Notes under the pieces: generated by a model
Seen by the model: the letters and a program-made list of their open reading frames with translations, nothing else
What the model was told of the DNA's origin: nothing
Database searches by the model: none
Source: Lophium mytilinum
Lineage: Eukaryota > Ascomycota > Dothideomycetes > Mytilinidiales > Mytilinidiaceae
Assembly: GCA_010093605.1 (NCBI GenBank)
Contig: MU004186.1
Span: forward strand, 637,765-701,764
Direction: 5' to 3'
Length of the DNA stretch: 64,000 nucleotides
Made by a program: the position numbers and the translations under genes
Part shown: piece after piece, positions 9,734-53,125 of the stretch
Position numbering within the stretch: position 1 is the first letter of the stretch
Layout of the letters: every line of letters starts with the position of its first letter

Positions 9734-11437
9734 TTACCCCTCGGTCTCCGTCACATTATTTCCAGCATCTACAAGCTTTATAGCCTCCAAGATGGTTAAC
9801 CTCGGCTTCAGGTCTCTTACCTTAGGCTTTAGGTCTGAATACCCTCTTCGCAAAAACAAGAATTTGGAACTCACGGAACTAGTCGCACACTTCGTCCCTG
9901 TGACATCTTGACAAGTGCCAGCTTCAGATCCACAGTCGGTGTTGATGCAACGGTCGCTACCTGAACAGTCGGCGTCACTGTTGCAATCGGCCCCACAGCC
10001 TTCGTCACCGTCGACGCAGACTCCTGCGCCGGTAGAGACAAATGCGAAGCAAGTGCAATCCGTGCCCGATCCGCAGCTGGAGTACGAGCCACTGTTTCGC
10101 ACGTACGGGGATGAACAAGAATAAGAATCTGTTGTCGCCAATGGCGTTGCTGTTGCAGTGGCAGTCTCTGTGATGGTCAAACTCACGGTTGTCGTCGTAA
10201 TCATCGTCATAATAGTCGTAGCAGTTACGTCGATAGTTGACGTGAGGGATAACGTCGTTGTTGTAGTTGCCGTCACGGATCTGCGGAAGAGTCAGAGACC
10301 TGGCTTGGAAACTGCTGATTGGAAAATACTGATTTTTTAAACTTACGCGGTGCTTGTTGACGTGACGCTGGAAATTCCCGTCGCGGTGACCAAGTTGCTT
10401 ATTATTGGAACAGAAGTCACGGTGGTTGTGAGAGGTTTTTCGATGCAGGTACAGAGGCTGGCTACAACTGCACTGCCACTGAATAGCAAGCTGCTGAAAA
10501 TCGCTACTGGGCCAGCTTGCGTTGTTGAGGTAGGTGTGGTCGAAGGAGCCTTGGCTGAGGGAGACGTGCTCGAAGGAGCTTTGGCTGAGGGAGACGTGCT
10601 CGAAGGAGATTTGGCTGAGGGAGACGTGCTTGAAGGAGCCTTGACCGAGGAAGACGTGCTCGAAGGAACCTTGGTTGAAGAGTGCGTGCTCGAAGGAGCC
10701 TTAGCGGAGGAGTGCGTGCTTGAAGGAGCCTTCGCTGAGGAGTGCGTGCTCGAAGGAGCCTTAGCGGAGGAGTGCGTGCTTGAAGGAGCCTTGGCTGAGG
10801 CTGTAGGCATGGTTAAAAGAGCCTTGGTGGTAGTTCATTCGGTACAAGGCTTACTTCGGGGTTTAGGCGTGGGCGAAGTAGCCTTGGGGGCGGGGGTCGA
10901 GCTCGAATGACCCCCGTATGCTTGAGCAAAGCGCTTCTTTTTCTTGTCATTTGAGGCCGCCACTGTTACTGTTACCGTGACGGTGGTTTCAGTGTCGGTC
11001 TTTATCGCCGTGTAGGTCTGCGTGTAGGTAATCGTCAAAACAGTTACAGTAATGCTATCAGTTGAAACTGTGCTCGTGATTGTTGCGGTATCGACAGTGG
11101 TGGTCCTGTTCACTTGTTAGCTAAATTAAGAGATAAGTAGCCCATTCTAGCTAAAAACTCACGTTGCGAGCGAGGCAGACACGGTCGTAGTAGAGGTAGT
11201 AGTCGCCACTGTCGTTGTCACAGTTGACGGGACAGCCGTCAGAGTGACAGTCGCCTTGGGAACGGGGAAGTGGGAGGAACAGTAAGATTGAGCAACAGAA
11301 CAGCTAGCTAATTCTGAGACGATAACTTCATTAACACTGCCGCAGCTGGCTGCCGCAATAAGGGAGGGAAGGAACAGTAATGCAGACAAGGCATCGTAAA
11401 GCCGCGTTGATCGGAGAGAAACCATTTTTGGCAGCAC
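9734..11437 (-). CDS. Secreted mucin-like Ser/Thr-rich protein with Cys-rich C terminus
   Basis: Four exons joined at introns 11107-11162, 10801-10854 and 10281-10346. The start at 11437 (or ATG 11425) gives a signal peptide (YDALSALLFLPSLIAAAS). Then come a short Cys-containing segment, Thr/Val-rich stretches, a Lys-rich patch (NDKKKKRF), a block of about nine 10-residue repeats (KAPSSTHSSA type), a hydrophobic stretch (VAIFSSLLFSGSAVVASLC) and another Thr-rich stalk. The final domain of about 90 residues has some 14 cysteines (CSSPYV to GTKC). The 54-base intron 10801-10854 is inferred: its GTAAGC donor and CTACAG acceptor remove an in-frame TGA and keep phase. The composition suggests an O-glycosylated wall or adhesion protein. 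Function is otherwise unknown. Confidence 0.65.
10540..10800 (-). repeat. 30-base coding minisatellite, about 9 units
   Basis: Tandem 30-base units encode the decapeptide KAPSSTHSSA and variants (KAPSSTSPSA). Units nearer the 5' end of the gene are almost identical and later ones diverge, as expected of a repeat expanding at one edge. Confidence 0.85.
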
Positions 11438-12558: not shown

Positions 12559-15500
12559 TTACGAATCTGAGCGATGACCGGCGCGTTCCCAGGGCGTGTC
12601 GGGTTTCCGCCCTCTACCTCTAGGCTCTTCGTCTTCTCCATCTGATTCGTAGTCTCCACGTCGTAACCGGGCGAGTACAGTGTCCGCTATCCGTTGTCGC
12701 CTATGGTCTTGACGTCGTTTCCGAGCGTCATAACTCATCGCTTCCTCTTCCCTATCTTCCTCTTCGTTGCCAAGAAGAACTTCAAAATTAGCTGCGGCTT
12801 TGTCTTTCTCTCTTTGACTCCTTTCCCCTTTTTGAAATTGAAGGTAGTATTTTCTTCCTCTCAGCCTCAACTGCTCGTAATGGGAAATCGATCGATTCGG
12901 AGAATTAGGAGAACTCGGAGAACTCGGAGAACTAGGAGAACCGCCTATATCCACCTCCTTTCCGCGGATCTCGCCCAGAATCTCTGAAACCGATCTTTGC
13001 CGCATAGCTCCAGACGAAACACGAGTCAGCTGGCGCGGCGACCGGATTGTCGATTGGTCATCCTTCGTTACATGGCCATGCGCATCTTCTACTTCGACAT
13101 AGGCGTGAGTGGGCTTACCACCAAGGCTAGCCTCAATTCCCTTCAATGTCTCACTAGGTGCGCCTAGTAGGTGTGGGAAGTCGTTGTCGGAATACAGCAG
13201 TTCACTACGTCCGGTGACCTAGCGCGAAAACTGAGACGACCCCAGTCGACCACTTTTCCGGGCTAATGGTGATTTGGCTCAAAGACTGATTGGCTAGGAG
13301 GCTGCTAATTACCCTTAAGGCCGGCCGGAAAAGCTACCTTAAATGGTAAGTCTGTGGCTTGATTTTAGCGCTTGTTCACCGGACGTGGTGAACTGCTGTA
13401 TGCTCTGGTGGCAGCATCTCTAGGATCGGTATTTTCCTCGACCTACGACATAACGTTAGCTCAGCTCTCAAGCGCTCGGTCCCCAGCAGTTTCGGGGTCC
13501 TGAGTCGCCTTTGGCGCAAGCAGTGGCAGGCGGCGATGGATAACCTACAATTTTAGAGTGGCAATACGGGCAGAATGCCCCGTCCTCAACTCTAGAATCG
13601 GTGTTTTCCTTGACCTAGGATATAATGTTAGCTAGCTCTTGAGAGCTTAGTCTCCAGCCATTTCGGGGTTCTTGCTCGCCCTGAGCGCAAGCAGTGGCAG
13701 GCAGCTGTGTGAACTAGGCTTTGTTGGATAACTTACAATTTTGGAGTGGCAATACGGGCAGAATGCCTCGTCCTCATGTCTGGAATCGATGTTGTCCTCG
13801 ACCTAAAACATGATATTAGCTCAGCTTTGAAGCGCTTGGTCCCCAGCAATTCTGGGGTTCTTGCTGGCCCTTGGTGCGCAAGAAGTGGCAGACAGTGGCG
13901 CGAAGTCAACATCTCCGGACAACTTACAATTTCCGTGAAATCAGAGTGGCACTTGGGGCATGAGAGCCCGTGCTCGTCGCTGTACCATTCGTTTTTGCAT
14001 TCGTGACAGAACATCAAGTCGCGCGCAGCTGTCTGTGGCTGTTGCGCCAGCTGTTGAGGTGATCGGTTCATGTTGGGCCGGACTTCATCACCTGTGATAT
14101 TGTCGTCTACCGTCTTCTTTAAGCTGCCAACCGGAAGGCTGCCCTTCCGATATTCGGCGCCCATCCTCTTCCACTCTGCGACATTTGGTACTCCAGCATT
14201 CTCAATAGCTTCATGGGCGTTAGGAATGATTTGTAGGGTTTCCATGTCCCGCATCTCTAGATACGATAACGGAATCAAGCCGGGGCCTCCCAGGCGAGTA
14301 ATAGGTTTCGCAACGACCCACTCCTTGTTAGATTGCGCGACGATAATGACGGCTTCACCGTTGGTAACGTCCATTTCGTCGGGCCCCGCGGCTTTGAAAT
14401 CGTATAAGACCTCCCCATACAAGGTGGCCCTGGGATCGGGTTTGGGCGCCGGCTCCAAGTGATCAGTCTCAGTATCTCTTGACGGTAGCCCTTGTTCCTC
14501 CTGTTCGCTTGCTTGCTGCGTGTCGTTTTCCTGGAGCTCAAGCTCAGCAAGACGCTGTCGCATCTGATTCTCGAGTTCCTCTTCTTGCTTCTTCTTCTTC
14601 TTAGCCTTCTCCTCCTCCTCCTTAGCCTTCTGCTCTTGAAGGAAAGCCTCCCAATCGGCCTTCTCCTTATCTTCCTGCTTCTTTTTTTCCATCTCAAGCT
14701 GAAAGATGAGCTCCTCTTTCTGCTGCTTGGCCTTTGCTGCGTCATCCGACTTCTTCCTCTCATACTCGGCAATGGCGCGGTCGCGAGCCTCCTTGGCCTT
14801 TGCTGCGTCATCCGACTTCTTCCTCTCATACTCGGCAACGGCGCGGTCGCGAGCCTCCTTCGCTTCAGCCTCCTCTTCGGCTTTCTCCTTCTGGTAGGCA
14901 TCGATAAGACGCTGTCTTTCCTTTTTCTCCTCCTCATCTCGTTGCTCTATCTTCTGATTATATTCGGCGATGATTCGTCCCCGCTCTTCATCTCGGTCTT
15001 TCGCTCGCTGCTCCCTCGCCCTTTCATCCCTCCCCTGCGTCAGCTTCCCGTCCGTGTATCTCGCTGTCTCTTCCCTGGTACGGTCTTTGGGGTCGTCTGC
15101 ATCTGGTTCGTTGCGGAAGTTTCCATCGAGTTGATCATCTCGCCTGGCTTCATTCTCAATTGCTTCCTGGGCGTAAGGATCGCCTCCTGCTTCTACGCCG
15201 TCGACTTCAATGTTGTAATCGCCTCCCAAAGGCCCAAAGGCACCAGTGTCTTCTGCGTGAAGGAATGAATCGAAGTCGAAATTTTCGGAGACATCAGGTC
15301 CATCGACTGGTGGGAAATCGAGGCTGTTAAACTATTCATTATCAGTGCTGTCGTCAAATCTCGTGATAAAGCGAATCCTACTTCTTCGCCCAGGCTTCCG
15401 AACGGAGCCCTAGGATTGTCCATAGGAGGTTGTTGTACTTGAGGTGCAGGTGCCGCAACGGACTGTTGCGATTGCACGTTGCCCTGTTGCCCGTTCTTCT

Positions 15501-18500
15501 GGCTTGGGTTGAACAAGTCCGCCCCCGGATTGTCCATGCGGAGGTTTCCCTCGAGTTGATCATCTCGTCTGGCTTCATTGAAGACCGATGAAGTTTCAAG
15601 GCTTCGTTGTGGTTTCTCCTTAGAGCTAGTTTGCTCTGCCCTTGCCACAGAAGCCGTCGCCGGTAAGACTACCCACTTAGGCATTTCCTCGATTTTCCTA
15701 ACTATGTGCCTTTGCAGTGCCAGTGCTGACTCATCGTTTCGGTGATACTTCTGCAACATGCGCGCTACATCATCCACAAAATCGCTCGTAGCCAAGTAAC
15801 CGCCACTCTTGAGCTTCTGTTCCATGGTCACCAGATCTAAAGGCTGTTTGGTGAGATCGAAGCCACGCGGAACTGCATCACCGATTACTGGCACCAGGAA
15901 AAGCCTCGCGAAGGACTCCGTTTTCATCTCGTCGAGAAGCTTGACCAAATCATTGTAGCTAGATCCAGATTGAGTAGCGTGAGTCGAAGCATTGTCGTTA
16001 CCTTCCTCATCTCCGTCCGAGTCGTCTATGGGCTTTACTTTGTCATGGTCATATTCGGCAGGATCTCTCCAAGCAGCCATAGTTTTGATTCCCCCTTCAA
16101 GCTTCCCGTCGAAGTGTGCAAGAAGATGGTCGTTCCGAGAATCCCAAGATCCAAAGTAATTGCCGCACAATCCGCATCTCCGGCTAAAAGTCGCCGCATA
16201 ATCTTGCTTCGATTGCTCTACTACCTCGTCCGCATCGGCATCAGGGTGGGTGTCTTTGATGTGTTGTAGCATCTTGTCGCGGCTACCAACGACGAACATC
16301 TTTTGGGGAGAGGCAGTCCTGCAGATCTCACATACCCAAAATTCCTGTGGCCAATGGGTTTCCTCGTGCTTTTTCCAATCGAACGCGTTTTTAGTTGTGT
16401 ATCCGCAGAGAACTGTAGACATATACTGTCCCCTCCTGGCCGTCCCAGGACAATCTTCTCTTGTACTGTTCCTGACACGCTCCGCGTACTTTTCGATAGC
16501 TTCACGAGCGTTTTGGGACACGTAGTCATAAGGAATAGTGTCCTCTGGCGACACGTTTCTTTTTCCAGTTCTTTCTTTGGCATCAGCCGGAAAGTCGAGG
16601 GGTTTGTCGAGATCAGTATCTGAGAAGAGTTCGTTAAGATTCTGACGTACAGCGTCAGTTGTTCGACGGTCGGTGCGCTCGAAGCTGCCCTCTTTAGTAG
16701 CGGCCTGGGTGGAGGAGGTATCCGTGGCTTTGGCCGAGTCGAGTATGCTTCCAGCCACTTCCTTCGTACCATCTGCGGCTGCTTTTTCCGCTACTTCTTC
16801 TTCCGACTTCTTGATCTTGGCACATAGCTCGGTATCCGGGAAGTGGTAAGTAAAGTCAACCTTCAAGTAGGGGCCACGAAGTAACGACTTAGCGGTAGGG
16901 CGTTCAGAAGGGTCGCTAAAGGCCATCCAATTAGCTCTGGGTACGGAGTGACGCCAATCTGACTTGAAGACTTACACCGTAAAGCAATCATAAAGAAACG
17001 CAATGCCATCCATACTAGCCGCTGCCATCACATCGTCGGGTATTGGTGGTGCTTCGCTGAGAGAACCAAGCTTGTAGATCGCAGCAACAGCCTCTTCTTT
17101 AGACCACGGTCTACGACCCGCCATCATCTCTAGCACGATGCATCCAAGGCTCCATATATCGGTCTTGTCAGAGTAGCCCTTCCCTGAACTACGGACAACT
17201 TCTGGCGCCATCCAGAATACGGCACCCGTCATATCTGAGGACTCTTCGTCGGGCAAGTCGCTCATTCTGGAGGTGTCGAAGTTAAGGCAAAGCTTGCAAG
17301 TACCGTCTCTTGTGTCGAGCTGTATTTCGTCTGCTTTGAGGCTCCTATGGAGGACGCCCTCACGATGTAGATACTCAAGCGCCTCTGTTGTCTGTCTAGT
17401 GACGTTACGAGTGACAGAATCTTCGAACTTGCCATATTTCCGAAGGAGAACTCCAATGGAAGAGCCTGGCACGTATTCTTCAAAGACTGTGAAACTACTT
17501 TTGCTCTCCTCTTGACCCAGGATCTGCACCAGGTTAGGGTGGTCAAGGTAAAGATAAAAGGTGTCGATTTCCATAGCCAGTCGCTTCTGGTACTCCTTTG
17601 ACCTGACGGCATACTCTTTCACTACAAGGAACTCTCCGCTTGTCATGTTGATGCCTAGATAAGCCCGGCAATGTGGCCCTTTGCTTATCATTTGTCCTTT
17701 TCTCCACGTGAGAGTCTTACCTTTTTTGTTGGTAGTGAGATGAGTGGTATCCGAACCCGAACCGTCTTGTCTCGATGCTGATGTTTCCGAGGCATTCGTT
17801 ATACTCCCCGCTTCTTTCATTCTGCCTGCACTAAAGTCCAGTTTATTCTCAAGTCCGACATCTGATGGCACTTCCGGCACCTTCTGGGACGGTTCACCAG
17901 CACTTGCATTGCCATAGCTGCCGGGTGGTCGCAGGGGAACCCCGAAAAGTGAGTCATTGCTTGACCCCCCAAAAAGTGAGTCGGTGCTTGACCGAGCATC
18001 TGGATTTTCAGAGACGCTGGAGGATTGTGGGGGAGGCTCAGGAAACGTTAGAGATCCTTTTGACCAAGAATTTTGAGATCCATGACTGCGCGCTTGCGGT
18101 GCATTACTGCTGGCCTGCGAGTCTTCATCTCTAGCACCACTCCTCGGTAAGGAAAAGCAGGCGATTGCCTCTAGATGATAGGCTAAGTGAGTTTGCATGC
18201 TCTCATCCGACGGGAGTTGCACTAAACAAAACGGGCACTTCTTCCGCTCGTCTATTAGATAAGTCTCTGCGACTTCTGCAACGTCAGCTACCTGCTCGTC
18301 GGTCATATCCTGCGGATGGTGCGACTTGAGGTGGTTTCGAAATCCGTCAGCTGAGCCAAAAACCGCGCCGGAATGCTCGAAACATTGCCAGGCTTTCCGG
18401 TGCGCGGATCCTTCGTGTTCAAGCCACTGGCGTCGGCTACTGAACATAGTATTGGACTCCGCACAGTCCGGATAAGTGCACATGTATGGTTGTAAGTCTT

Positions 18501-19664
18501 GAATGATATGAGCCCTGGTGGTTTGTGAGTACGGGCCAAGTGATATAACCCAAATGCGAGCCAAACGTACCTCCAAGATCGTCCCGTCCCGTGCCTAGGA
18601 GGACAGAGGACCATGCAGTACGGACAGACAAATCCAGATCCGGTACCAGCCCCTGGAGGGGGTGGGGGTAGATCAACTCCTTTCCCATCGAAATTGTACA
18701 CCGTGGTAGCATAAGAGACAACGGATTGAGTCTCCAGGAGGTCATCAAGCTTTTTGTCATAAGTAGTCGCCTCCGTCCCAGAGAAGATGGATCTCGAAAG
18801 AACGCTAGGCGTGGCGTCAAGCCTAATGAGCTTTTCGCGAACTGTCAGTCCGCCAGTGTCTAGGCCACGAGATTGGTGTTGCCGGGCTGACTGACTTTCT
18901 CCATCATGGTGTTGTTCGAAGGGTGTGTGGGCCGTAGCAAGTTTGCTTCCATGTCTTTTCCAATACCTGAACTGCTTACGCCGCCGAGTAATAGCTCGAC
19001 CCAGTCGATCTATCAGAAAAGAATTTTCGACTTCATCGCTAGAGCTAGACTTTTGCAGGCTATGTAGCAGCTCGGAGACGTAAAGAGAATCAAAGACTGC
19101 GTACTGGGAGTACAGCTCCACGCCAGTATCTGGGTCTACCTCGGTATATGTTGCAGTTTTTCTCGTTTTTGCTCTTGTCGTAGTGCTTCGTATCTTGAAA
19201 GACAGCTTATAAAGGTCTGCTATGATGTTGTTGATGCTTGATAAGCGCTGCCGCAGCTCTGATCTAGGAACAGCAGGCTCGTCTTCGGAATCCTCACTGG
19301 AAGTTTCGGAAGCCTCATCGTCGTCGTCAGAATCGCTTGTCTGCGTTTGTAGCTCGAAAGGTAATCTCGATCCTGATACAACCGCCGCGCTCTCGTCTAG
19401 ATTGCTTCGAAGCTGGTCTAGGAGCTTGATGACGTGCGCCTGCATGACACTTGATTCTCGAAGCCGGAAGTCCAAGGAGCCATGGCCTTGCTGAAGTGCC
19501 CCGAGGTTCCCCAGCCAAACCTTGTAACGACCGTGGTTCTCTTCGACTAGACTCGGGGGCATGTGGTCGAGGAGCTCCGGCTTGATACCAGGCTCGGTAA
19601 GTGCTTTGCGCAGCATCCCGAACAAACGGAAGCATGCTGCGCTGGCATCGTATATGGAGGCCAT
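12559..19664 (-). CDS. Giant C2H2 / pseudokinase / bromodomain-like / SH3 / zinc-ribbon protein
   Basis: Seven exons (18571-19664, 16976-18514, 15382-16936, 13928-15331, 13737-13802, 13549-13614, 12559-13442) keep phase and give about 2,130 residues. In order, with rough residue positions: a helical N terminus with acidic Ser patches (1-330). C2H2-type fingers follow (about 345-490, CPYC...H, YMCTYPDC, CPFC). The kinase fold (about 635-880) keeps the VVK lysine and MAPEVV, but HRD reads HRS and DFG reads NFD, so it is probably a pseudokinase. A second finger cluster (about 970-1110) precedes a degenerate bromodomain (about 1205-1290). A conserved acidic motif (FDFDSFLHAED) and a long charged coiled coil come next. 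Then a Bem1-like SH3 domain (AKPITRLGGPGLIPLSY), an RNF126-like zinc ribbon (CHEC...CPKC) and a Ser-rich tail. The last exon carries a 204-bp MITE at 13195-13398. Without it the exon is in frame; with it the gene is either broken or the MITE is spliced. The function is likely a signalling scaffold; that is inference. Confidence 0.72.
13195..13398. mobile_element. MITE-A copy 2 (204 bp) inside a coding exon
   Basis: Ends CAGCAGTTCACTACGTCCGG and its inverted partner ...CCGGACGTGGTGAACTGCTG are near-perfect over about 23 bases. TA flanks both sides (13193-13194 and 13399-13400). Removing the element and one TA joins codons GCA TA/T TCC of the giant gene's last exon in frame (678 bases, divisible by three). 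Confidence 0.9.
13443..13928 (-). repeat. Tandem exon-intron duplication in the giant gene
   Basis: Two 66-base exons (13737-13802 and 13549-13614) each encode a 22-residue module with CPYCHSKI at its end and a variant of VEDNIDSR at its start. Their following introns (13615-13736 and 13443-13548) match each other and the preceding intron (13803-13927), sharing blocks such as GCCACTGCTTGCG. Unit length is about 188 bases. The start of the last exon (VEENTDPRD) is homologous to the module start. Confidence 0.88.
14727..14860 (-). repeat. 66-base coding duplication in the coiled coil
   Basis: Two nearly identical units encode a 22-residue charged segment (EARDRAVAEYERKKSDDAAK and EARDRAIAEYERKKSDDAAK) within the giant protein's coiled coil. 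Confidence 0.8.
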
Positions 19665-20148: not shown

Positions 20149-21988
20149 ATGTCAGGCATCGAGATCGCCGGCCTCGTCCTGGGCGCGATACCTTTGGTAA
20201 TCGCAGGCCTCGAGTATTACGAGGAGGGCCTGGGAAAGGTGAAAGCGTTCTGGAAGTGGGAAGATGAACTCTCTGAAGCTATTCGCAAGCTTTGGGGCCA
20301 GTATAGCTCCTATGAGCTCACCATTCGCGGTCTTCTTGCGTCTATCACATCAGAGGCCGAGCTCGAGGAAATGATGGGCGACACCACCGGTAAACTTTGG
20401 AAGAGCGAAGACATGTGCGAAAGACTTCAGGAGAAGCTTGCAACTGCATATCAGCCATATTTATATACCGCGTCCGAGATAGAAAGGATTATCCTAGAGA
20501 TGACAGCGTGCCTAAATCTCAACAAAGCTACCCAGGTAAGAATATTGCCGTATCACGTTTACCATCGATGTTGACAAGAAATTAGATAACCCGCAATGAG
20601 CTCGAGGCAGTAGTAATTGCCAATCCCAGGATGATGAAGAGTGGCTCTTCTCGTGACTTCCAATTTCAAAAACGGATCAAATTCACCATGAAGAAGCAAA
20701 AGGTCAAACGACAACTAGAACAGTTGGAAAGTTGCATTGCCAGGCTTGATACCTTCACTGAAAAGGCTGAGAAGCTAGAACCATACAAAAGCAACAACAA
20801 GTCGAAATTCACAGTCCCTCTCCACCGCATACAGCAATATGCCAAAAGCTTGTACCAAGTTCTGAATCGATCCTGGGGTTGTGATGCTCATGCAAGTCAC
20901 GCGATCAATCTCTTATTAGAGCAACGGATGGTGCTTGCGAAAAAGAAAATGAGAAATTTGACATCTTCAATGGACAAGAGCTCCGACGGTGTCGCTCGCT
21001 TCGTGCTGTCGATTTCTGACCCTTCCTTACCTTCTGGATGGAGAGATGCTGAGGTTCAGGTCATGGAGGAGTCGGAAGTGTCAGCAAAGTACGTATAAAA
21101 CTTCTCCGGTGAGTGACTTATACGCGCTCACGCTCTGACTCGATACACAGTAGCAAGAGTAAAGTAAAAATCGCAGTCTCCCCGCCATCACCGACCACGC
21201 AGAGTGTCACGAATGCCCTCAAGGCACTCAAGGAGATCACGAGTGTCTGCTCGGCACTACAAAATTATCCGTTCGCTACGACGTGTCCAAGATTCTACTT
21301 AGACCATGACGGCAAACTCAAAGGGATATTTGGCGCACCAAAGCGGCTCACGGTCCATGACAGCAACTTCATGACTCTAGACGAACTGATTAGGGATGGT
21401 GCTATACCTGGTACGCAGAAACTGACTAAAGAAGAGGGCTATCTGCTCGCTGTGACGCTGTCCTCTTCTCTTCTACAACTTCATTCCACACCATGGCTGC
21501 GGAGCCGGTGGAGTAAGCGAGATATCTCCTTTTTAAAACTCACCCAGTCCCAAAAAGACAACGGCGGAAACCTTGTGCAAGTCAGATACCCCTATGTAAC
21601 GCAGGAGTGGTCTCCACAAGATCTCAGCGCTCAAGATCCTCTATCCGATGTAGAAGGCGATAGCTCGAAACTCCTCGCTCTTGGGATAGTTCTTCTGGAA
21701 ATCTACTTCAACCAGCCCATTGAGAGTCTCCGTGCCAAAACATCCAGCGGTATTTCTCAACAACCAAACGATTATGAGGACCTCAGTATTGCCAATCGCT
21801 GGGTTAGACGGGAAAAAGGGAATCTATCGTGGGCCTTTCAAAATGCAGTCTCGCATTGTTTGAAGTGCTTTGCGGACCCAAACGCCGATCTTCAAGATCC
21901 AGACTTTCGCCAAGGAGTGATTGATGAGGTACTTATTCCTCTCCAGGACGAATTGTCTCTTTGGACGGATGGACCCCCAAGAGGATAG
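20149..21988 (+). CDS. DUF7580-type protein with HeLo-like N terminus
   Basis: Three exons (20149-20535, 20586-21088, 21151-21988) give 575 residues in phase. The N terminus MSGIEIAGLVLGAIPLVIAG followed by LEYYEEGL is the hallmark start of a large fungal family: a short hydrophobic helix, then a helical bundle of about 200 residues resembling HeLo-type cell-death and signalling domains. The C-terminal half (about residues 330-570) fits DUF7580. It is a degenerate kinase-like fold (PFATTCPRFYL, VTLSSSLLQLHSTPWL, LLALGIVLLEIYF, CLKCFADPNADL) without HRD or DFG, so it is not expected to be catalytic. Its 5' end faces the giant pseudokinase gene 484 bases away. A role in non-self recognition or regulated cell death is plausible from the fold but unproven. 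No frame damage is seen. Confidence 0.75.
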
Positions 21989-32617: not shown

Positions 32618-35600
32618 TAGCGGTTTTTCTCCCACACCCACACGAGATTGCCCACACGCCCGATGAGGCCTGGCGGCCTCGCACGGGCGTAACGCCTATA
32701 TAAATTAAGGTTAGCCACGTATTTAGTGTATAAGGAATATAGCAAGGGGGTCCCTATAATTTAGCTAGCTAAAAAGGGCAATATTAGAGGGATTTTCAGC
32801 TAAGGTTCCGCGGCTAAGAAATTACTATAGAAAATTTAGTTTTTTAAGGTTTTTTATAAGAATAAGTAATAATAAGTTTAATAATAGGTTTCTACTACTT
32901 TAGGCAGCCTTAAATTAATAGGAAGATTAACTCTATAAGGCTTAGCGTAGTATTTAAGCTCTAGATAGGCGTGCGCACTTCTAAACGCCTTATTTTAAGT
33001 AGAATCTTAATAATATAGATAAGAAGGTTTACTATTAAGAGACCTAGTAAGTATATATATAGTAAGGCTGTATAGCCTTACTATATATATATTATAGCCT
33101 ACCTATTTTAATGCCGCGGCTAATAGTTTATTAGGTTCCGCCCGCATAAAATCTAATAGCTAGCACCTATATTATTTAATATAGATAAAAAGATAAGGTT
33201 TAATATATACTCTACTACGCCTAAAAAAGTAATATATACTATAGCTAAGCGCCTAGCATACCTAGAGAGGTACTACTCGCATATAATATGCATGGGGCGA
33301 AGTAGATTCTAGATATTAGAGGTTTTTAATAGCTTAATTAAGCGGCTATATAATAAGTAGAAGGACCTACTATATTAAAGGCCTTAGCTTAATAAGTATA
33401 TAATACTTAAGAGGTATACTAGAGCTCTCTAGAGACAGGGGTATAGTAGAGGGCGAGTATAGGGCTCTATAGATAGTACTTTCTTTAGATTCTATAGGCC
33501 TAAGAATAGTTAGCGCTAGCTTACTATATACTCCGGATATTATAAAGAAAACGGGCTAAAGTATTAGTTAATTATAATACTAGATAGACTCGCTTCTTAT
33601 ATATCTATGCCCTTCTTAGCGCTAAGTAATAACTAGAATATCTATTTATAATTAGAAGTAATTAAGAGGCTCTAGAATATCTTTATTAGTAAGCCTATAT
33701 TATATTTATATAGTAATAATATATATAGAGAGAGCTATAGTTATATTTCTCTATAGAGTAACTAGAGAGGGTTTAGATAGTTAATATATAAGCAACTATA
33801 GTTAAATTATAAGCTTAGTAGCGCTAGAATTATAGTAGAGAATACCTTTAGAAAGATTAAATAGCTATTTACCTATAATTACCTTAAATAGAGCCTCTAG
33901 TATAGTAGCTAGCCTCTTGCCGCGTATTTTATAGTGTTAGTACTCTTCTATAATATTTTAACGTGCCTCTAGGGCATAATAGATCTAATTGCAAAGTAAT
34001 TTAAGTGCGAGCCGCCGTCTATAATAGAGTATCTAGGTATAGAAGTAGTAGAAAATAGGCCTAAGAATAAGGCTATAGAAAATAGGTAGTATATAGAAAA
34101 TAGGTTATATATAGAAAAATAGGTAGTATATAGAAAGTAGATAGTTTCTAGGCTATAGAATAGAATAGAAGTATTAAAATTACGCTAGTATATACTAATA
34201 GCCTCTTAGTAATTTACTTAATTTAAACTCTACTAATTAGAATATATAGATCCTTGCTAAACCCGCTACTACCTACTATTACCTAAACCTTATTCTTGCA
34301 CCTACCTAGCTTAGTAGCTACTAATTAGTTAGATTCTCTTATTAAAGCTCTTTTAATATACTTAAACCTAACCTCCTATACTAATCTACTACCTATTCTA
34401 CCTACCTCCGCGCTCTAATAGCTGCCTTATTATTGCCCGTAGGTTATTATTTACCTTCTACTACTTAGTACGGTCCTTCTATATCTCCTAGCAAAGCCCG
34501 GCGATGTTAGCCGGCCTAGAAACTATCCTCTTATAAAGTTTAAGCTTACGGCGCCTTATTTCTAGTTTCTTCTTTCTCTCTTTATATTAGATAGCCTCTT
34601 AAGACGCTATAGCATTAAAATAGCAGTTAAATAGCTAGTTTATAGCCTCTATAGAATACTAAGCGTCTACTATAGCTTAATAGTAAGAAGTATCTAGGTT
34701 TATACTAGTATATAGCACCACGCATCTCTCTCTATTCTCTTTCTCTTCTCTCTTTCTCTTTACTACGCGCTGGAGGCAGCTAATAGCTATCTTATTCTTC
34801 TCTCTCTTCTCTCTATCTAGCTCTTCTATTAATTTCTTTTTATCTAAAGCTTTCTAGTTTACTATTGCAATAATATTATCTACGCGCGCGTTAAATTAAT
34901 TAGGATTCTTACGCCCTATGCCTTTATTCCAGCCTATAAGATAGGCCTCTTAGTGCCTAATCTAGCCCTTTAAGTAGATCTACTTACTATCTAAACCTAT
35001 ACTATTTTTCTAGCTAAAAATTATATAGTAGAGGTTTATAGGTTTAAACCCTATTTTCTTCTTATATTCTACTATTATATCTCTATAGAAAGCCTTATTA
35101 CTCTTAGCCTTTATATATAGCTTCTTACGGGCAATAAAGAGAGTAGCTACCTCTAGCTTAAGGCTATCTTTCTACTCCACAGCTTTACTACGCATCTTCC
35201 GCTTTCTACGTGTAGTTATATAAAACTTCTAAATATAGCTAGTAACCGGTGCAATATTCTTATCTATAGGTGCCTTAGCGGCCTTTCTAGCGGCAGCTTA
35301 TTTCTTTAGCGCTACTGTTTTAGTAGGGGCAGAAGAAGGTAGGTTCTTCTTCTTATCCTTCTTATTATTATCTATTATTATAGGCTTATTCTCTTTAGTT
35401 TTCTTAGCCTTGCTATTATCCTCTATAGCCTTTCTATTCTCTTTTCTCTTTCTCCGTGGTGTAGCCTTTCCTTTGCCCTTTAGCGCGGCTACTTCCGCAG
35501 CCTAAGGCGCGCCCAGTTCCGCAGCCTAAGGCGCGCCTAGTTCCGCAGCCTGCGGCGCGCGCGGTTCTGCAACTAGAACTGGCGGCGATAAAGCTATTAT

Positions 35601-36433
35601 AATAGGCGGCCGTAAGGGCGTTAATATAGTAGTTAACTATAGAATATACTAGAGAGAAACTAAATAAGTTTAATACATCTTATAATATAGCGGCAGTATT
35701 AGAGCTAGTAAGCTTGCAAGTATTAAAGTAATAGGCGATAAAGAGATTATATATACTTTTAGCTAACTATTATTATAGTATAGTTGCGGCGCGTACTACT
35801 ACTGCCTCTATAGAGGACTTAAATTCTATAGCGTAATATTATATATATTACTATACTTATAGCCTATACTATTATAGATAGAAGGGGGGCCTTATAGCTA
35901 AGGTTAAGGCAGGCTATAGGCCTAAGGTTAAGGCAGCCTACGGGCCTAAGGCTGCTAGCTAAAAGGCGTAGAAGGATTATATACCGGCCGTGTAAGGTAA
36001 AGAAAAGGTAATTAGGTAGCTATAGGTATATATAGGTTACGCCCTATATATAGTAGCTGTTTTAAATTATTTAAATTACTATAAGAACTTATACTAATAA
36101 AAATATAGGTGTAAATTTAAATAGTATATATAACGCGTTAATATATAATATATATAATATTAATTCTATCTATATACTAAGCTACTATATTATTCTACTA
36201 AACCTTATATAGCCTTCTCTCTATATAGGTAAGCTACCTATATTATAGGTGAGCCGCCCACTACCCACTAATTTGTAAAGGAGTTGTGTAAGCCCCTTTA
36301 TTTCCGTGCTAACGTGTTAATTTGGTGGCGTACAGGGGCCTCAACACCAACCTTTCCTCTCACGGGCGAGCTAGCCCGTGCGGGGTGTGGGCGGCGTGTG
36401 GGCAGCCGTGTGGGTGAGGGAGAAAAACCGCTA
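32618..36433. mobile_element. RIP-saturated DNA transposon relic, Harbinger-like (DDE_4)
   Basis: Ends carry imperfect inverted repeats of about 44 bases (TAGCGGTTTTTCTCCC... at 32618 and its complement ending 36433). They sit in a TATA context, so the target duplication may be TA or TATA. The interior is very AT-rich and nearly lacks CA/TG. On the plus strand, 33440-34020, decayed fragments (GSIDSTFFRFYRP, LTIYSGYYKENGLKY, ARIIVENTFRKIK) follow the order of a DDE_4 / PIF-Harbinger-type transposase. A second decayed frame with charged helices lies on the minus strand (about 35230-34300). Dozens of stops are present. The family call is from motif order; the exact superfamily is open. Confidence 0.7.
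35495..35575. repeat. 24-base GC-rich minisatellite inside the RIP relic
   Basis: About three units of TTCCGCAGCCTAAGGCGCGC plus four bases, GC-rich within otherwise AT-rich DNA. CpG is kept while CpA is largely lost around it. Confidence 0.65.
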
Positions 36434-36567: not shown

Positions 36568-38443
36568 CTACACCAGCCTTATGCTTTCTCTAGGTTCTTT
36601 AAATGCGTCCATCGAATCCTTTACAAAAATCCTGCCCAACCCGATTCTTTCATATGTATTCGTGTTCTCTTTGCATTTCCTGAGGAGTAGCACTTCTCTA
36701 ATTGGATCAGCAGTACGGTTAGGGGGATGAGACAGCCGCAGCCGGGTACTGATCTGGATGCAGGAGACCACCGCGCCCGCTTCAATCAATGACTCATAGT
36801 CAGTTTTGAGATCAATCATACAGTACCCTGGATTGGAGTACTCTGCAGTGCTCGAGTCTTGACCCTCGATATGCCGTCTTCCTCTAACAAACGATAGAAG
36901 CCCGCATCCTGTGCCCTTATAATTCCAATCATGGGATGCCTTAGCGAACTTTTGCCTGCAAGCGTGGTCCGAAGAGATCTTACGCACTTCGGCTATGTCT
37001 AGACAGCCTCGAATTACGAGATCATTGCGGACGAGTCGTCCAGTAAACTCAGGTCCATCCCAATCGCACTGTAACTTTTCAACCTCGGCATTTAGTACAT
37101 ACTCGACTCTGGTTATTATATCTTTCGTGCGTCGGTGGTCAATTGCTTCGTTGACTGACAGCCAGGACCACGATGGCATAGGGAATTCGTAACTGTGAAA
37201 CCGCGTTCCAAGGTCGGAGGCGTTCCAAAGTAATCCAAGAATCAAATCACTTTTCCAAAGCCCTAGAACTGGTATATCTTTGGTCCGCTGGGCGAAATAC
37301 TTTATCACGCCGGTGATTGCCGCCAACCGATCAGACTCATAGGTGAGTTGCCTTCTTGTGTAATCCTCGATCCAACGCCACCATTGAGCCTGCGATATAT
37401 CATCGCTGGATCTAGTTCTAACGTAAAAGGAATCAGCAAGCAGATCCTCCCCTTCGTGGGTCACCATCTGCACCCTGGTCTTGCATCCCCACTGGAGTAC
37501 TGGTGCACAGAAGGTTATCGATCTAAAAGAAAGAAGATCCTCTTGAAATGCCCAAGCCCGACCGTAGAGTGGAGAGTCTAATATTTGCAACTTGCGATAG
37601 ATTTCCTCTTTCCACTTTTGTTCTTGTGTAAACCAGTCATTTCTCAAGAATCCGTCTTGACAGTCAGCAGCTGAGGCAGCCGTAATCGTTATGGACGCGT
37701 TCTGATAGACTGAAGCCATTTTCCCAGCTTCGATAGCCCAGTCCCCTGGATGTGTCCTAATGCCATCGTCGTCTTCCAACAATACCTTCTGAATGATGCA
37801 CAATGCATCGACGTAAAGGTATTGAAGACCGAGCTCCCAGGTGACGAAGATGGCGTCTTGGATTGTCCGCGGCAGACGGTTCCATGGTATGCATTTCTTA
37901 TGCTCTTCTAGCCTATTGATGGTAGTTTTGTAATTGGCCCCCGAGGTCCCCCAGCAGTACGACAAAGCAGCATAACTACCCTTTTTCCCGTCTCTCAATA
38001 AGACGAATTGAGTCTATCTCGTTTGCCTGGCCAACGTCAATGACCCTGGTGGGTAAAGTAGTGATGCCGACTCGAGACGAGCCACATCTGGGATGGTCTG
38101 CGTTGCACTTATCAACCCATTTCCGTACAGAAGAAAGAAGTAGAGTGACTTTATCATCTAGGAGAAGGGCCTCTAAATGCGCGCCATTAGATGAAACAGC
38201 TGGAGCCAACGAGACCGAGGAATCACTGTCATCGGGTCCTAGATCAGCTCTTTTGCTCAGGTTCTCTGATATGATTCGACTTCTGCTAGAGTTCTTCAAA
38301 TGGCCTTTTGCGAGGAGCAAGGGCTTTGTCGACTCCTCCGAGTCGCTGATGGGCAGTCGCCGGCGTTTGTTCGGAGGTGGCCCCACCGGCATGGGATGAT
38401 TCCAAGGGCTCCTTCGTGGCCTCTTGGATTGGTAGCCTGACAT
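36568..38443 (-). pseudogene. HET-domain (heterokaryon incompatibility) gene fossil
   Basis: A HET-family gene, nearly full length. The start at 38443 is followed by a basic, Pro-rich N terminus and a Cys/His segment. The HET core follows: SYAALSYCWG, then LQYLYVDALCIIQ and ASITITAASAADCQDGFL, the three classic HET blocks. A variable C-terminal half of about 300 residues follows. No introns are needed. The frame shows about one break, so I treat it as a broken copy that may be recent. HET proteins trigger vegetative incompatibility in filamentous ascomycetes. It lies directly beside the RIP-altered transposon relic (134 bases away), a usual setting for such genes. Confidence 0.8.
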
Positions 38444-39331: not shown

Positions 39332-42300
39332 CTACTTTCCACTTCGTCCTCCCAACTTGGCAAGCAACCTCTTCTGAGTATCGCCTAACCTCACGAATGG
39401 CAGAGTCTTCTCCGTCGGCTGCGGCAAGAAGCCCACCTCAATCAGGAACGCAAGATACACCTCCACCGTCTGCAGTTCTACCGCTGCTCCCTTCGAAACG
39501 TCATGACCAGTCCACTTGGCATCCAGCTTAAGCGCCTTCGCTGCGTTAGCGTCGTCGAGTTCCGGGGCGCGCGTGTCGCTGGGCAAATCGCCGGTGACGA
39601 AGTGGTAGAGAGGTAACAGTGCATGCTCCTCCTTGCCCTCTCGGATGTAATCATCTAGCTTCTGCTTCCATTCCTCGTATGATACTTTCTTAACCCCATA
39701 GGCAGCTAGTGCCTCGGTGAATTGATTGAATGTCAGGCGGGGATGCGAAGTGACTTGGGCAACACCAAGGGGCTCTGTTGGTGGGTAGAAAGAGGTTGCC
39801 ACGACCACGCGAGCCACGTGCGTGACAGGAACCATGTTGACGGTGTTATTCATATCGATGGACACGCCGATTTGGATGCTGCCTTTCAGCATACGGACGA
39901 GGAAATCATCCGTATTGGTAGCTGGTGAATGTTAGCCTTGCACGTCCTCAAGGATGAAGTCCAAATGAGATAGGTAACTCACTTCCTTTCTCCGGATCGC
40001 CAGTCACATAACCTGGCCTGATAATACACCCTTTCAGGCCTCTTTTTCCAGCGGCGCGGACGAGATATTCGGCAGCCCACTTGCTCTGGCCGTAGCCGGA
40101 TCCGAGACCCTTCCTCGACCCTTCTAGATCATCGGCTTCGCTGACTCCAGCACCGCCTTCCGCAATGCTCTGCTCTGACACCTTGATATAGTGCTCATTG
40201 TCAAGAACAGATGTCGAGCTGACGAACCCGAGCTGCTTGGCCTTTCCTGTCGCACACAAGGAGAGGATGGTCATGGTACTGAGGACGTTCGGGGCACGTA
40301 GTCGCGAGTAGGGAAGAACCCAATGGACTAGTGCTCCATTGTGAATAACCACATCTACGGTGTCTGCGAGCCGATTCCAGACGTCCGGGGCGAGTCCAAA
40401 GTTTGCTTTTTCGAGATCGCCAGGCAAGCACTCCAATCGAGACTTCCAGTTGTTACTCCAGACATCCCATATACCGTAAGCTTGGCAGATATCCGTAATT
40501 CTGCTGAGCGCTGCTTCTCCGTCTTTCGCTCGCACAAGGGCAACGACTTTGACTGTTGGAGATTTCCTAGACAGCAGATCTTGAAGGATGAAAGCCCCTA
40601 AGAAGCCTGTAGCTCCAGTAAGGAACACAGTATGCTCCTTTGTAGGATCCAGGTCGCGGGCTTCGAACTTCTCGATCAATTGCTTGCTGAGATCTCTTGC
40701 GTCGGCTGAATAATCTTCGTCTTCTGGGTCGTCATCAACCGCCTCGCCGACGTCAAGTCGAAGACCGACAGGATCTAATGCTTGGTCTACATTCGCTGAG
40801 AAGCCACGAAGTGTTGGGTATTGAAAAATGATGGACATCGGGACATCGATATCCCTCCACTTCTTCCTCACAGCCATAAGCATTTGTTGGGCAATAATGC
40901 TATGGCCACCAAGGTCAAAGAAAGAGTCGCTTCCGCCAATGCTATCTGGGTTTACTCCCCGGATTAAGTTGGCCCAGATTTCGGCCACGGCCTTCTCTGT
41001 TGGCGTGAGTGCTTTGCCCAATTGTGAAGGCCTTCGAGCTCCGGCAGCGGCTAATTGTCCTGGCTCGGGGAAAGGTAATGCGGGACGGTCAATCTTCCCA
41101 TTAGGGTTCAAAGGGAAACGGCTGAGCGGAACCAAGACGGACGGAACAGCATACGCTGGTAGCTTCTTTTTCAAGTGCTCCCTTACGTCGTCTCGCAGAA
41201 ATTTGAAACGCTTCAACATGCCTACCATGCTGGTGTCAGTCGAGTCATCGATCCTACCATGGTCTTCGAGCCATTGATACCACCGCTTCATTTCGGGAAC
41301 GATGTAGCCTTGGCGCGTTAGCATACGGTTGCAACCATAGTCTGAAGTAATACTACTCACTAACGAGTGTCGGTTCTTCGTAAGCGTCACGCTTCAGCAG
41401 GGTGACATTCTCCCGAACTAACGGGTGGGCGGCAAGATGGGAATCGATTTCTCCCAATTCGATCCGGAACCCGCGAATTTTGACCTGTGAATCAACCCGT
41501 CCCGAGCAGTGCACGTTTCCATGCTCATCGTAATATCCCAAGTCACCAGAACGGTACAACCTGTCCCTTGGGCCCTTCCAGAACTCCCGCCATGGGGCAG
41601 GGTTCTCAGCTGCTTTGACGTTATCCTCCTTAACCCATTTCTCGTTGTCGACAAACCAGTTCTTGACAAATTTCTCAGATGTCAGGTCTGGAAGCCCTAG
41701 ATATTCTTCTGCTAGACCTCCTGCACGAACATATATTTCGCCACTCTGTCCCACCTTGCATATTTTGGTTCGGTCCTCACGGTCGACGACAAGTAGTTGG
41801 ACGTTGTTCATACCTCGTCCCGCAGGAATGACTTCGGGCATCGTATCCAGGAAGTCAGGCGAGTCATTACGGCTAGGAAGCTCGTAATAGCTCACCGCTC
41901 GCTGGGTTTCTGTGGTTCCGTACATGTTCACGATCCGCACATTTGGAGCCAGCTCCTGCAACCTTCTGCAATCCCGCTTGATGAGCAAATCCCCGACGAA
42001 GAACGAGTGGTGCAGGCTTTCGAAGATTGCTGCCGCGCCCCCGACCAGAATTTGTCCCATGGCAGGTGTCAGGTGGGTTACAGTCGGCTTGTACTTCCGC
42101 ATCCATTCAGCTAGCTTCTCATGCTGGATGTCTTCTTTGCTTGGGACAAGCAATTGTGCTCCGAGGAAAAGCGGCGTGAATATGTCCCGCTGAATAGGAT
42201 CATGGGCTATACCTGAAAGCATCGTGAACCTGTCATTGTCCGAAAGTCCGAACCTCTCGGCCATCCACGGAAAGTAATGTGTCAGCGAGAAGTGCCGTCC

Positions 42301-52280: not shown

Positions 52281-53125
52281 GACTTGAGACATATGAGCGG
52301 GGGCTTGTCTGGAGTTTGCAGTGAATCGATGCATAGTATTGCTTTGGACTGTAAATTAAGAGAATGGCGGGGGTAAACGAGGGGTGTGACTTTGATATTA
52401 GATAAAGGGTGAATTGCAAAGACTTAGAAACAAATTACTTCGTAAGGCTGGCTCTTGCGACTAAGAGCAGAGCTAAGCAAACCCTTGCTCGAACCTATGA
52501 ATTAAACTGTGGAATTGGGGGAATGTTGGAGGGTGTGAAATGTGCTAACGGGAGCCAGTCCGCGCGATTTGGAGTTAGTTTGGGCATACTATTGCTGGAG
52601 TCTACAAATTAGACAGCTGCACGATGTGAAAGACTAGCTAATGTGAATTAGACGTCAGGAAAAGGGTAAATTACAGTGTGGTGAGGTGTGTTAACTGGAG
52701 CCAGTCCGTGCGATTTAGCAACAATTTAGGCATACTGTTGCTAGAGATTGTGAATCACACACTTGCCTACAGTAAGAGTTTGGCGGGTGTGAATTAGACG
52801 TCGAGAAAATGCTATTTTACAGTATGATGAGATGTGCTAACGGGAGCCAGTCCGGGTGATTTCAATTCAATCTCAGCATACTATTGCTCGACACTTTAAA
52901 TTAGAGCGTTGAATTGGGTCACTTTTTGACGATGTGAGATGTATAAACGGGAGCAGTCCGTGCGATTGAGTGTCGGTTTTGGCATGCTATTGCTCGACGC
53001 TTTAGATCAGAGCATCGATTTTAAGGTACCTTTTAGGGGTGTGATATGTCTAAGCGGGAGCCAGTCCGTGCGATTTGGGGGTCGATTTTGGCATATTATT
53101 GCCCGAGCGTGGGAATGAGGGGGAG
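52281..53125. repeat. Degenerate tandem array, 146/107-base spacing
   Basis: Five clear copies of a core (GGGAGCCAGTCCGTGCGATT, then about 14 variable bases, then GGCATACTATTGCTCGA). The GGAG of the core falls at 52551, 52697, 52843, 52950 and 53057, so spacings are 146, 146, 107 and 107. Two weaker copies near 52300 and 52446 fit the same register. Longer units carry an extra 39 bases around GTGTGAATTAGACGTC. No open frame runs through it. The array lies between the convergent FG-protein and mL46 genes. Confidence 0.8.

Follow-up and report, generated by a model that had tools for sequence, protein, structure and literature searches.

A candidate single fungal gene joining a MAP3K-like pseudokinase, an altered bromodomain, a Bem1-type SH3 domain and an RNF126-type zinc ribbon

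Does one gene of the fungus Lophium mytilinum join C2H2 fingers, a kinase fold, a bromodomain-like fold, a Bem1-type SH3 domain and an RNF126-like zinc ribbon in a single protein, and if so, what would such a protein do? The locus in question occupies positions 19664-12559, on the minus strand, of a 64,000-nucleotide stretch of contig MU004186.1 (assembly GCA_010093605.1, positions 637,765 to 701,764), referred to here as the window. An original prediction had joined these modules, together with a coiled coil, through phase-consistent exons into about 2,130 residues. Our gene model bears this out: module order, start codon, stop codon and phases all match, and the encoded protein, hereafter the chimera, comprises 2,141 residues. 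We hold with moderate confidence that a single intact gene encodes a non-catalytic scaffold or decoy, which would bind partners from the polarity and mitogen-activated protein kinase (MAPK) machinery and partners of the ubiquitin type.

The model has eight exons, running from an ATG at 19664 to a stop codon at 12561-12559, and the spliced frame is uninterrupted by in-frame stops. All seven introns are GT-AG and keep phase at every join; in order they measure 56, 60, 50, 125, 122, 106 and 161 nucleotides (nt). A CTRAY-like branch motif is present in five of the seven, introns 1 and 7 being without one. Exons, selected introns and modules are as follows.

18571-19664, minus strand: exon 1, with the start codon, the N-terminal region and the Cys pair that opens C2H2 cluster 1 (FVCPYC); codon score 0.118, none of the other five frames exceeding 0.059
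18515-18570, minus strand: intron 1, 56 nt, within C2H2 cluster 1; GTACGT...CAG, joining SWR-AHIIQDLQPY
16976-18514, minus strand: exon 2, with C2H2 cluster 1 (residues about 345-500), a linker and most of the pseudokinase
16813-17712, minus strand: MAP3K-like pseudokinase, residues 633-912, across intron 2
15382-16915, minus strand: exon 3, with the kinase end, C2H2 cluster 2 (16452-16099), the bromodomain-like fold (15963-15664) and a linker; codon score 0.199
15664-15963, minus strand: Gcn5-type bromodomain-like fold, residues 1196-1295
15332-15381, minus strand: intron 3, 50 nt, GTAGGA...AATAG, separating the bromodomain from the coiled-coil part
13928-15331, minus strand: exon 4, with an acidic FDFDSFLH segment, the coiled coil (about 15031-14519), the Bem1 SH3b-CI and the first two zinc knuckles; codon score 0.335
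14723-14854, minus strand: coiled-coil unit of 66 nt (22 residues) in two tandem copies, 97% identical, also detected by Tandem Repeats Finder
14120-14431, minus strand: Bem1-type SH3b with CI extension, residues 1690-1793
13558-14014, minus strand: RNF126-type zinc ribbon with four CxxC knuckles, encoded by the end of exon 4 plus exons 5 and 6
13737-13802, minus strand: exon 5, a 66-nt cassette (VEDNIDSRHEDEAFCPYCHSKI)
13549-13614, minus strand: exon 6, a 66-nt cassette copying exon 5
13380-13442, minus strand: exon 7; left unspliced at 13379, it runs into a stop a few codons on, giving a 1,926-residue form
12559-13218, minus strand: exon 8, a charged, low-complexity C-terminus

Ten large open frames from elsewhere in the window served to train the codon score. 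It ranks the assigned frame of exons 1-4 first of six, with values of 0.113 to 0.335. Exons 5-7, which are only 63-66 nt long, score 0.120 to 0.152 and are top among the three forward frames, while the antisense of exon 5 scores higher than its sense frame (0.199 vs 0.152). The score is uninformative for these three exons because introns of similar length reach up to 0.182 in some frame. For exon 8 it does not favour the assigned frame (0.080 vs 0.094 in another).

The kinase fold is present along its full length. With exons 2 and 3 spliced, the Pkinase profile matches at an E value of 1.2e-44 over positions 3-263 of 263, compared with 7e-38 from exon 2 unspliced. The closest solved kinases in the PDB are MAP3K5 (3.3e-41) and MAP3K2 (5.2e-37), and the top 14 among the best 60 of 89 PDB matches are all one or the other. 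The chimera thus has the full-length fold in common with human MAP3K5 and MAP3K2; unlike them, it has lost the catalytic Asp, both metal-binding residues (Asn and Asp) and all but one of the three glycines of the Gly-rich loop. In the alignment to MAP3K5, HRD becomes HRS (Ser756), the catalytic-loop Asn becomes Glu761, DFG becomes NFD (Asn776-Phe-Asp778), and the Gly-rich loop reads SKGPHC instead of GKGTYG. The β3 Lys664, αC Glu680, APE Glu803 and the DxWSLG motif are kept. Judged by its sequence, the domain, with the fold present but HRD Asp, catalytic-loop Asn and DFG Asp all absent, is catalytically dead. The NCBIfam matches of exon 2 are all bacterial kinase models and score far under their cut-offs; the other five proteins searched match nothing at E ≤0.01. 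We take the kinase and its C-terminal tail to resemble fungal Bck1/Mkh1-type MAP3Ks. Other fungal proteins discussed with a pseudokinase include PUK1 of Fusarium graminearum and SltB of Aspergillus nidulans; compared by description, the entries on them mention none of the chimera's other modules.

The bromodomain-like fold is also real, with PF00439 matching at 31.7 bits (cut-off 21.7; E value 1.5e-7), and its nearest solved relative is the bromodomain of Gcn5 (2.8e-13 over about 100 residues). Bromodomains bind acetyl-lysine through a conserved Asn. The Asn of the Gcn5 KYN motif aligns with His1269 of the chimera, and three residues before it and four after it (seven in total) are absent, so that the acetyl-lysine Asn is not found, though the Gcn5 alignment is gapped at that position. 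Loss of acetyl-lysine binding is only likely, because of this gap and because the single-sequence structure model of the region is poor, with a mean predicted local distance difference test (pLDDT) score of 49.6. The chimera further differs from Gcn5 in that a Pfam scan finds no acetyltransferase domain in it.

The SH3 domain can be assigned more narrowly than a Bem1-type SH3. PDB entry 2rqv matches at 1.4e-20 over residues 2-107 of its 108-residue chain, and the match corresponds to the second SH3 domain of Bem1 (SH3b) plus its CI extension; SH3 fold and C-terminal extension of the Bem1 SH3b-CI structures (2rqv, 2rqw, 2kym) align with the chimera over nearly the whole chain. The surroundings differ. 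Bem1 has two SH3 domains, a PX and a PB1 domain, whereas the chimera has one SH3 stretch and, in a Pfam scan of its five long coding segments, neither PX nor PB1 at E ≤1; its SH3b-CI, unlike that of Bem1, sits between a coiled coil, which was assigned by eye, and a zinc ribbon. In Bem1 numbering as assigned from the alignment, Trp192 is kept as W1727 and Pro208, an important residue of Bem1, as P1743. Since both are kept, binding of PxxP ligands by SH3b-CI is a fair prediction. In yeast, W192K in SH3b abolishes the interactions of Bem1 with Boi1, Ste20, Cla4 and others, and SH3b-CI carries both PxxP and Cdc42 sites, with CI binding Cdc42-GTP (PMC7409549).

The zinc ribbon matches Zn_ribbon_19 (PF14369), which we take to be the RNF126 ribbon, at 47.7 bits in three stretches when spliced (cut-off 30.8). 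Without the cassette exons the score is 29.6 bits in one stretch, just under the cut-off, and exon 4 by itself gives 24.1 bits. The knuckles are CHEC and CPKC in exon 4, followed by one CPYC from each of exons 5 and 6, and all eight zinc-knuckle cysteines are kept. Ribbons of the RNF126 type bind ubiquitin-like domains. The family is common to the chimera and the RNF126/RNF115-type RING E3 ligases; these have a C-terminal RING, whereas the chimera contains no Cys beyond residue 1897 and therefore no RING, and its ribbon has four knuckles owing to duplicated exons. The 15 PDB matches of the ribbon at E ≤5 do not include RNF126 itself.

How the ribbon was lengthened can be read in part from the exons. 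Exons 5 and 6 are identical at 58 of 66 bases, both preserve phase if skipped, and with their introns they form a tandem array (106-nt repeat, 83%), the introns being 74 to 81% identical. The heads of the two cassettes resemble exon 7 (19 and 21 of 24 bases), and the sequence surrounding their CPYCHS agrees with that surrounding the exon 4 CPKCHS at 19 and 21 of 30 positions, versus 13 to 16 of 30 for three other knuckles of the chimera. Their last 33 bases, compared with exon 4 without gaps, show no resemblance (14 and 15 of 33). The cassette exons likely arose by unequal exchange around an intron.

The C2H2 fingers are less sharply defined. The Cys/His pattern is visible in both clusters, in keeping with the original prediction; no C2H2 profile of Pfam reaches its curated cut-off in either of them. 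The best model in cluster 1 is zf-met (6.6e-4, 20.4 bits vs 21.2) and in cluster 2 zf-C2H2_4 (1.3e-3, 19.7 bits vs 27). The 364 residues of exon 1 have no Pfam match except one at 0.097, taken as noise, and no PDB match at E ≤10. The N-terminal region and C2H2 cluster of exons 1-2 are, we assume, like many proteins in fungal genomes, and cluster 2 presumably resembles another fungal group.

A kinase that looks dead, a changed bromodomain and the absence of a RING, combined with kept SH3b ligand residues and zinc ligands, argue for binding rather than catalysis. A fusion scaffold for signalling or recognition, as first proposed, is therefore the best fit and is in part supported; the proposal had missed the pseudokinase nature of the kinase fold, the CI extension of the SH3 domain, and a ribbon that is lengthened and has no RING. 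Every confirmed module is of a known family, but active kinases, acetyl-lysine readers, Bem1 and RNF126-type ligases each have a defining feature that, by its sequence, the chimera lacks. We envisage a C2H2 chassis that was joined by copies of a MAP3K catalytic domain, a Gcn5-type bromodomain, a Bem1 SH3b-CI and an RNF126-type ribbon. In this picture, SH3b-CI would bind PAK/Boi-type PxxP ligands and perhaps Cdc42; partners from the MAPK cascade would be held by the pseudokinase and a ubiquitin-like fold by the ribbons, and the coiled coil would serve for oligomerisation. Such a protein may scaffold parts of the polarity and MAPK machinery, compete with them or replace them. The original proposal knew of no described protein with this module order. 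The chimera is not described in the papers listed on fungal kinomes, bromodomains, pseudokinases and domain architecture, as judged by titles and the beginnings of abstracts, and no paper was found that combines Bem1, SH3 and C2H2 with fungal domain architecture. Two fungal kinome papers (PMC2838846, PMC6001611) use neither C2H2 nor zinc finger nor SH3 in their main text.

Several points weigh against a binding scaffold of this kind. Pseudokinases may retain ATP binding or residual activity. The partner assignments are inferred from yeast and human relatives. Where Bem1 has Asn253, the chimera has S1787; exchange of this Asn for Asp (N253D) is used to disrupt Cdc42 binding (PMC7409549). At E ≤10 the spliced ribbon hits 95 families, with many other Cys-rich profiles among them and some unrelated ones passing their cut-off, so that part of its score is composition. 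Finally, of the eight bases at which exons 5 and 6 differ, 2, 3 and 3 lie at the three codon positions, with no third-position excess and therefore no sign of purifying selection.

This last point bears on the strongest rival to a binding scaffold, a young chimera that is still open and under little constraint, in which the dead kinase and the altered bromodomain reflect decay and there is no settled function. The internal copies in the gene look recent. In addition to the 97% identical coiled-coil unit, a 43-nt stretch is present on either side of intron 3, in exons 3 and 4, at 93% identity; a 29-nt stretch of the CI segment (14197-14225) recurs in exon 4 (15151-15179) at 90%, with a third copy at 16488-16516 (69%); and a 27-nt repeat unit is 89% identical. 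Where the exon 4 copy of the 29-nt stretch meets the start of the copy of the exon 3 repeat, the two overlap by four bases, which resembles a mosaic join. Repeats elsewhere in the window reach at most 85% identity, among 17 of the 21 families in eight other stretches (seven of 7.2 kb and one of 5.3 kb, two of which overlap by 800 bases; 34401-35999 was left out). From these comparisons the gene appears recently reshuffled. Against the absence of constraint stand 2,141 codons without an in-frame stop, seven GT-AG introns, and the preservation of the SH3b Trp and Pro and of all eight zinc-knuckle cysteines. We consider a young chimera with no settled function possible but rather unlikely.

A second rival holds that the model merges at least two ordinary adjacent genes, whose border would lie at intron 3 or ahead of exon 8, or which would use internal starts, for which exons 2 and 3 offer internal Met codons. 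Most module borders lie within continuous open frames: C2H2 cluster 1 with the kinase; the kinase end with C2H2 cluster 2 and the bromodomain; and the coil with SH3 and the start of the ribbon. Intron 2 falls inside the kinase, and splicing across it gives the full-length kinase match. Besides the last intron, the only one between modules is intron 3. In exon 4, which has the best codon score, Met first appears at codon 214 (position 14692); a gene starting there would retain SH3-CI and ribbon in 255 codons of exon 4, but the 213 codons ahead of it would then lack a start. Moreover, the 43-nt copies flank intron 3, and thus the exon 3 and exon 4 halves share a history.

Features at the other end of the gene speak for this rival. 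Exon 8 is the least certain part of the model: in addition to its ambiguous codon score and the missing branch motif of the preceding intron, it is joined through a weak donor (GTGAAC), and exon 7 holds the early alternative stop. The exon 8 frame spans 219 codons, a length reached in none of 1000 dinucleotide shuffles of the region (longest 198). Dropping exon 8 alone keeps all named modules together, as the protein would then end after residue 1926 in exon 7 and no named module depends on exon 8. We regard two or more separate genes as an unlikely explanation.

The remaining functional readings fare worse. Two C2H2-like clusters and a Gcn5-type bromodomain would suit a chromatin-associated regulator that finds its targets through both; with C2H2 matches under their cut-offs, His at the acetyl-lysine Asn position in a shortened loop, and a yeast counterpart of SH3b-CI that goes to the cortex (PMC7409549), this is improbable.

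Similarly doubtful is a guard protein with integrated decoys, in which the inactive MAP3K, Gcn5 bromodomain, Bem1 SH3b-CI and RNF126 ribbon would serve as baits for foreign attackers or hijackers of these hubs, and a neighbouring gene would supply the partner or executor. It would work like plant immune receptors with integrated decoys in that modified signalling domains are fused in one protein and a possible partner gene is adjacent; unlike those receptors, the chimera has no NB-ARC or NACHT match at E ≤1 in its five long coding segments (Pfam). The neighbour is the following gene.

20149-21988, plus strand: DUF7580 gene, a three-exon model encoding 575 residues (DUF7580, 3.4e-27)

It is arranged head-to-head with the chimera, their start codons 484 bp apart. 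Its protein has no HeLo or HELL match, such as an MLKL-like executor would show at the N-terminus, and, besides DUF7580, only two Pfam matches at E ≤10 (0.26 and 0.29); no PDB match is better than 0.072. No segment shared with the chimera, as in amyloid-coupled pairs, was found (best E value 0.55). A functional pair of chimera and DUF7580 protein is only speculation, because there is no HeLo/HELL match, no good PDB match and no shared segment. By eye, the N-terminus of the DUF7580 protein is glycine-rich and hydrophobic, and the single-sequence model of its first exon is helical, with low confidence (pLDDT 50.3). The term DUF7580 does not occur in the literature searched.

Least of all does the chimera look like an atypical yet catalytically active kinase with targeting modules, which is highly improbable: Lys664, Glu680, Glu803, the DxWSLG motif and the full-length fold are kept, but replacements have hit the HRD Asp, the Asn of the catalytic loop, both Asp and Gly of DFG, and all but one of the three Gly-loop glycines.

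The rest of the window holds no chimera paralog at E ≤1, and the window has no Rfam family and no tRNA. Scans of viral contigs with three coding segments and of prokaryote contigs with the SH3-ribbon segment returned no relatives; such scans can detect close relatives only, and these collections should not contain fungi. Pfam matches with E values near 0.1, among them D123 and YgjP-like, were dismissed as noise. Elsewhere, a gene on the minus strand at 36571-38013 encodes a heterokaryon incompatibility (HET) domain protein (9.2e-22). Near it, the region 33001-36000 has a GC content of 0.30 to 0.39, a TA/AT ratio of up to 1.94 and a (CA+TG)/(AC+GT) ratio down to 0.25, and looks like a relic mutated by repeat-induced point mutation. 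Short introns, the HET gene and this GC-poor stretch with its strong dinucleotide signature give the window the look of a filamentous ascomycete. At 39951-41393, also on the minus strand, lies a fragment of a reductase resembling nonribosomal peptide synthetases, with carrier and reductase (male sterility) domains and a sub-threshold AMP-binding C-terminal match. Two further arrays are present: one at 52531-53087, with a spacing of mostly 146 nt and copies 63 to 80% identical to reference copies, and one of 30-nt repeats at 10494-10830 (minus strand; eight registers, 65 to 85% to reference), which codes for Ser/Thr-rich 10-residue units in a probable secreted or wall protein.

The zinc ribbon is a clear example of how duplicating an intron together with its exon edges can lengthen a metal-binding fold. 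If the chimera is made from one transcript, the fungus gathers modified parts of its polarity, MAPK, chromatin and ubiquitin systems in one non-catalytic protein. Such a protein would match the look expected of a decoy or a dominant scaffold, and the use of integrated decoys by fungi, as in plants, would become testable.

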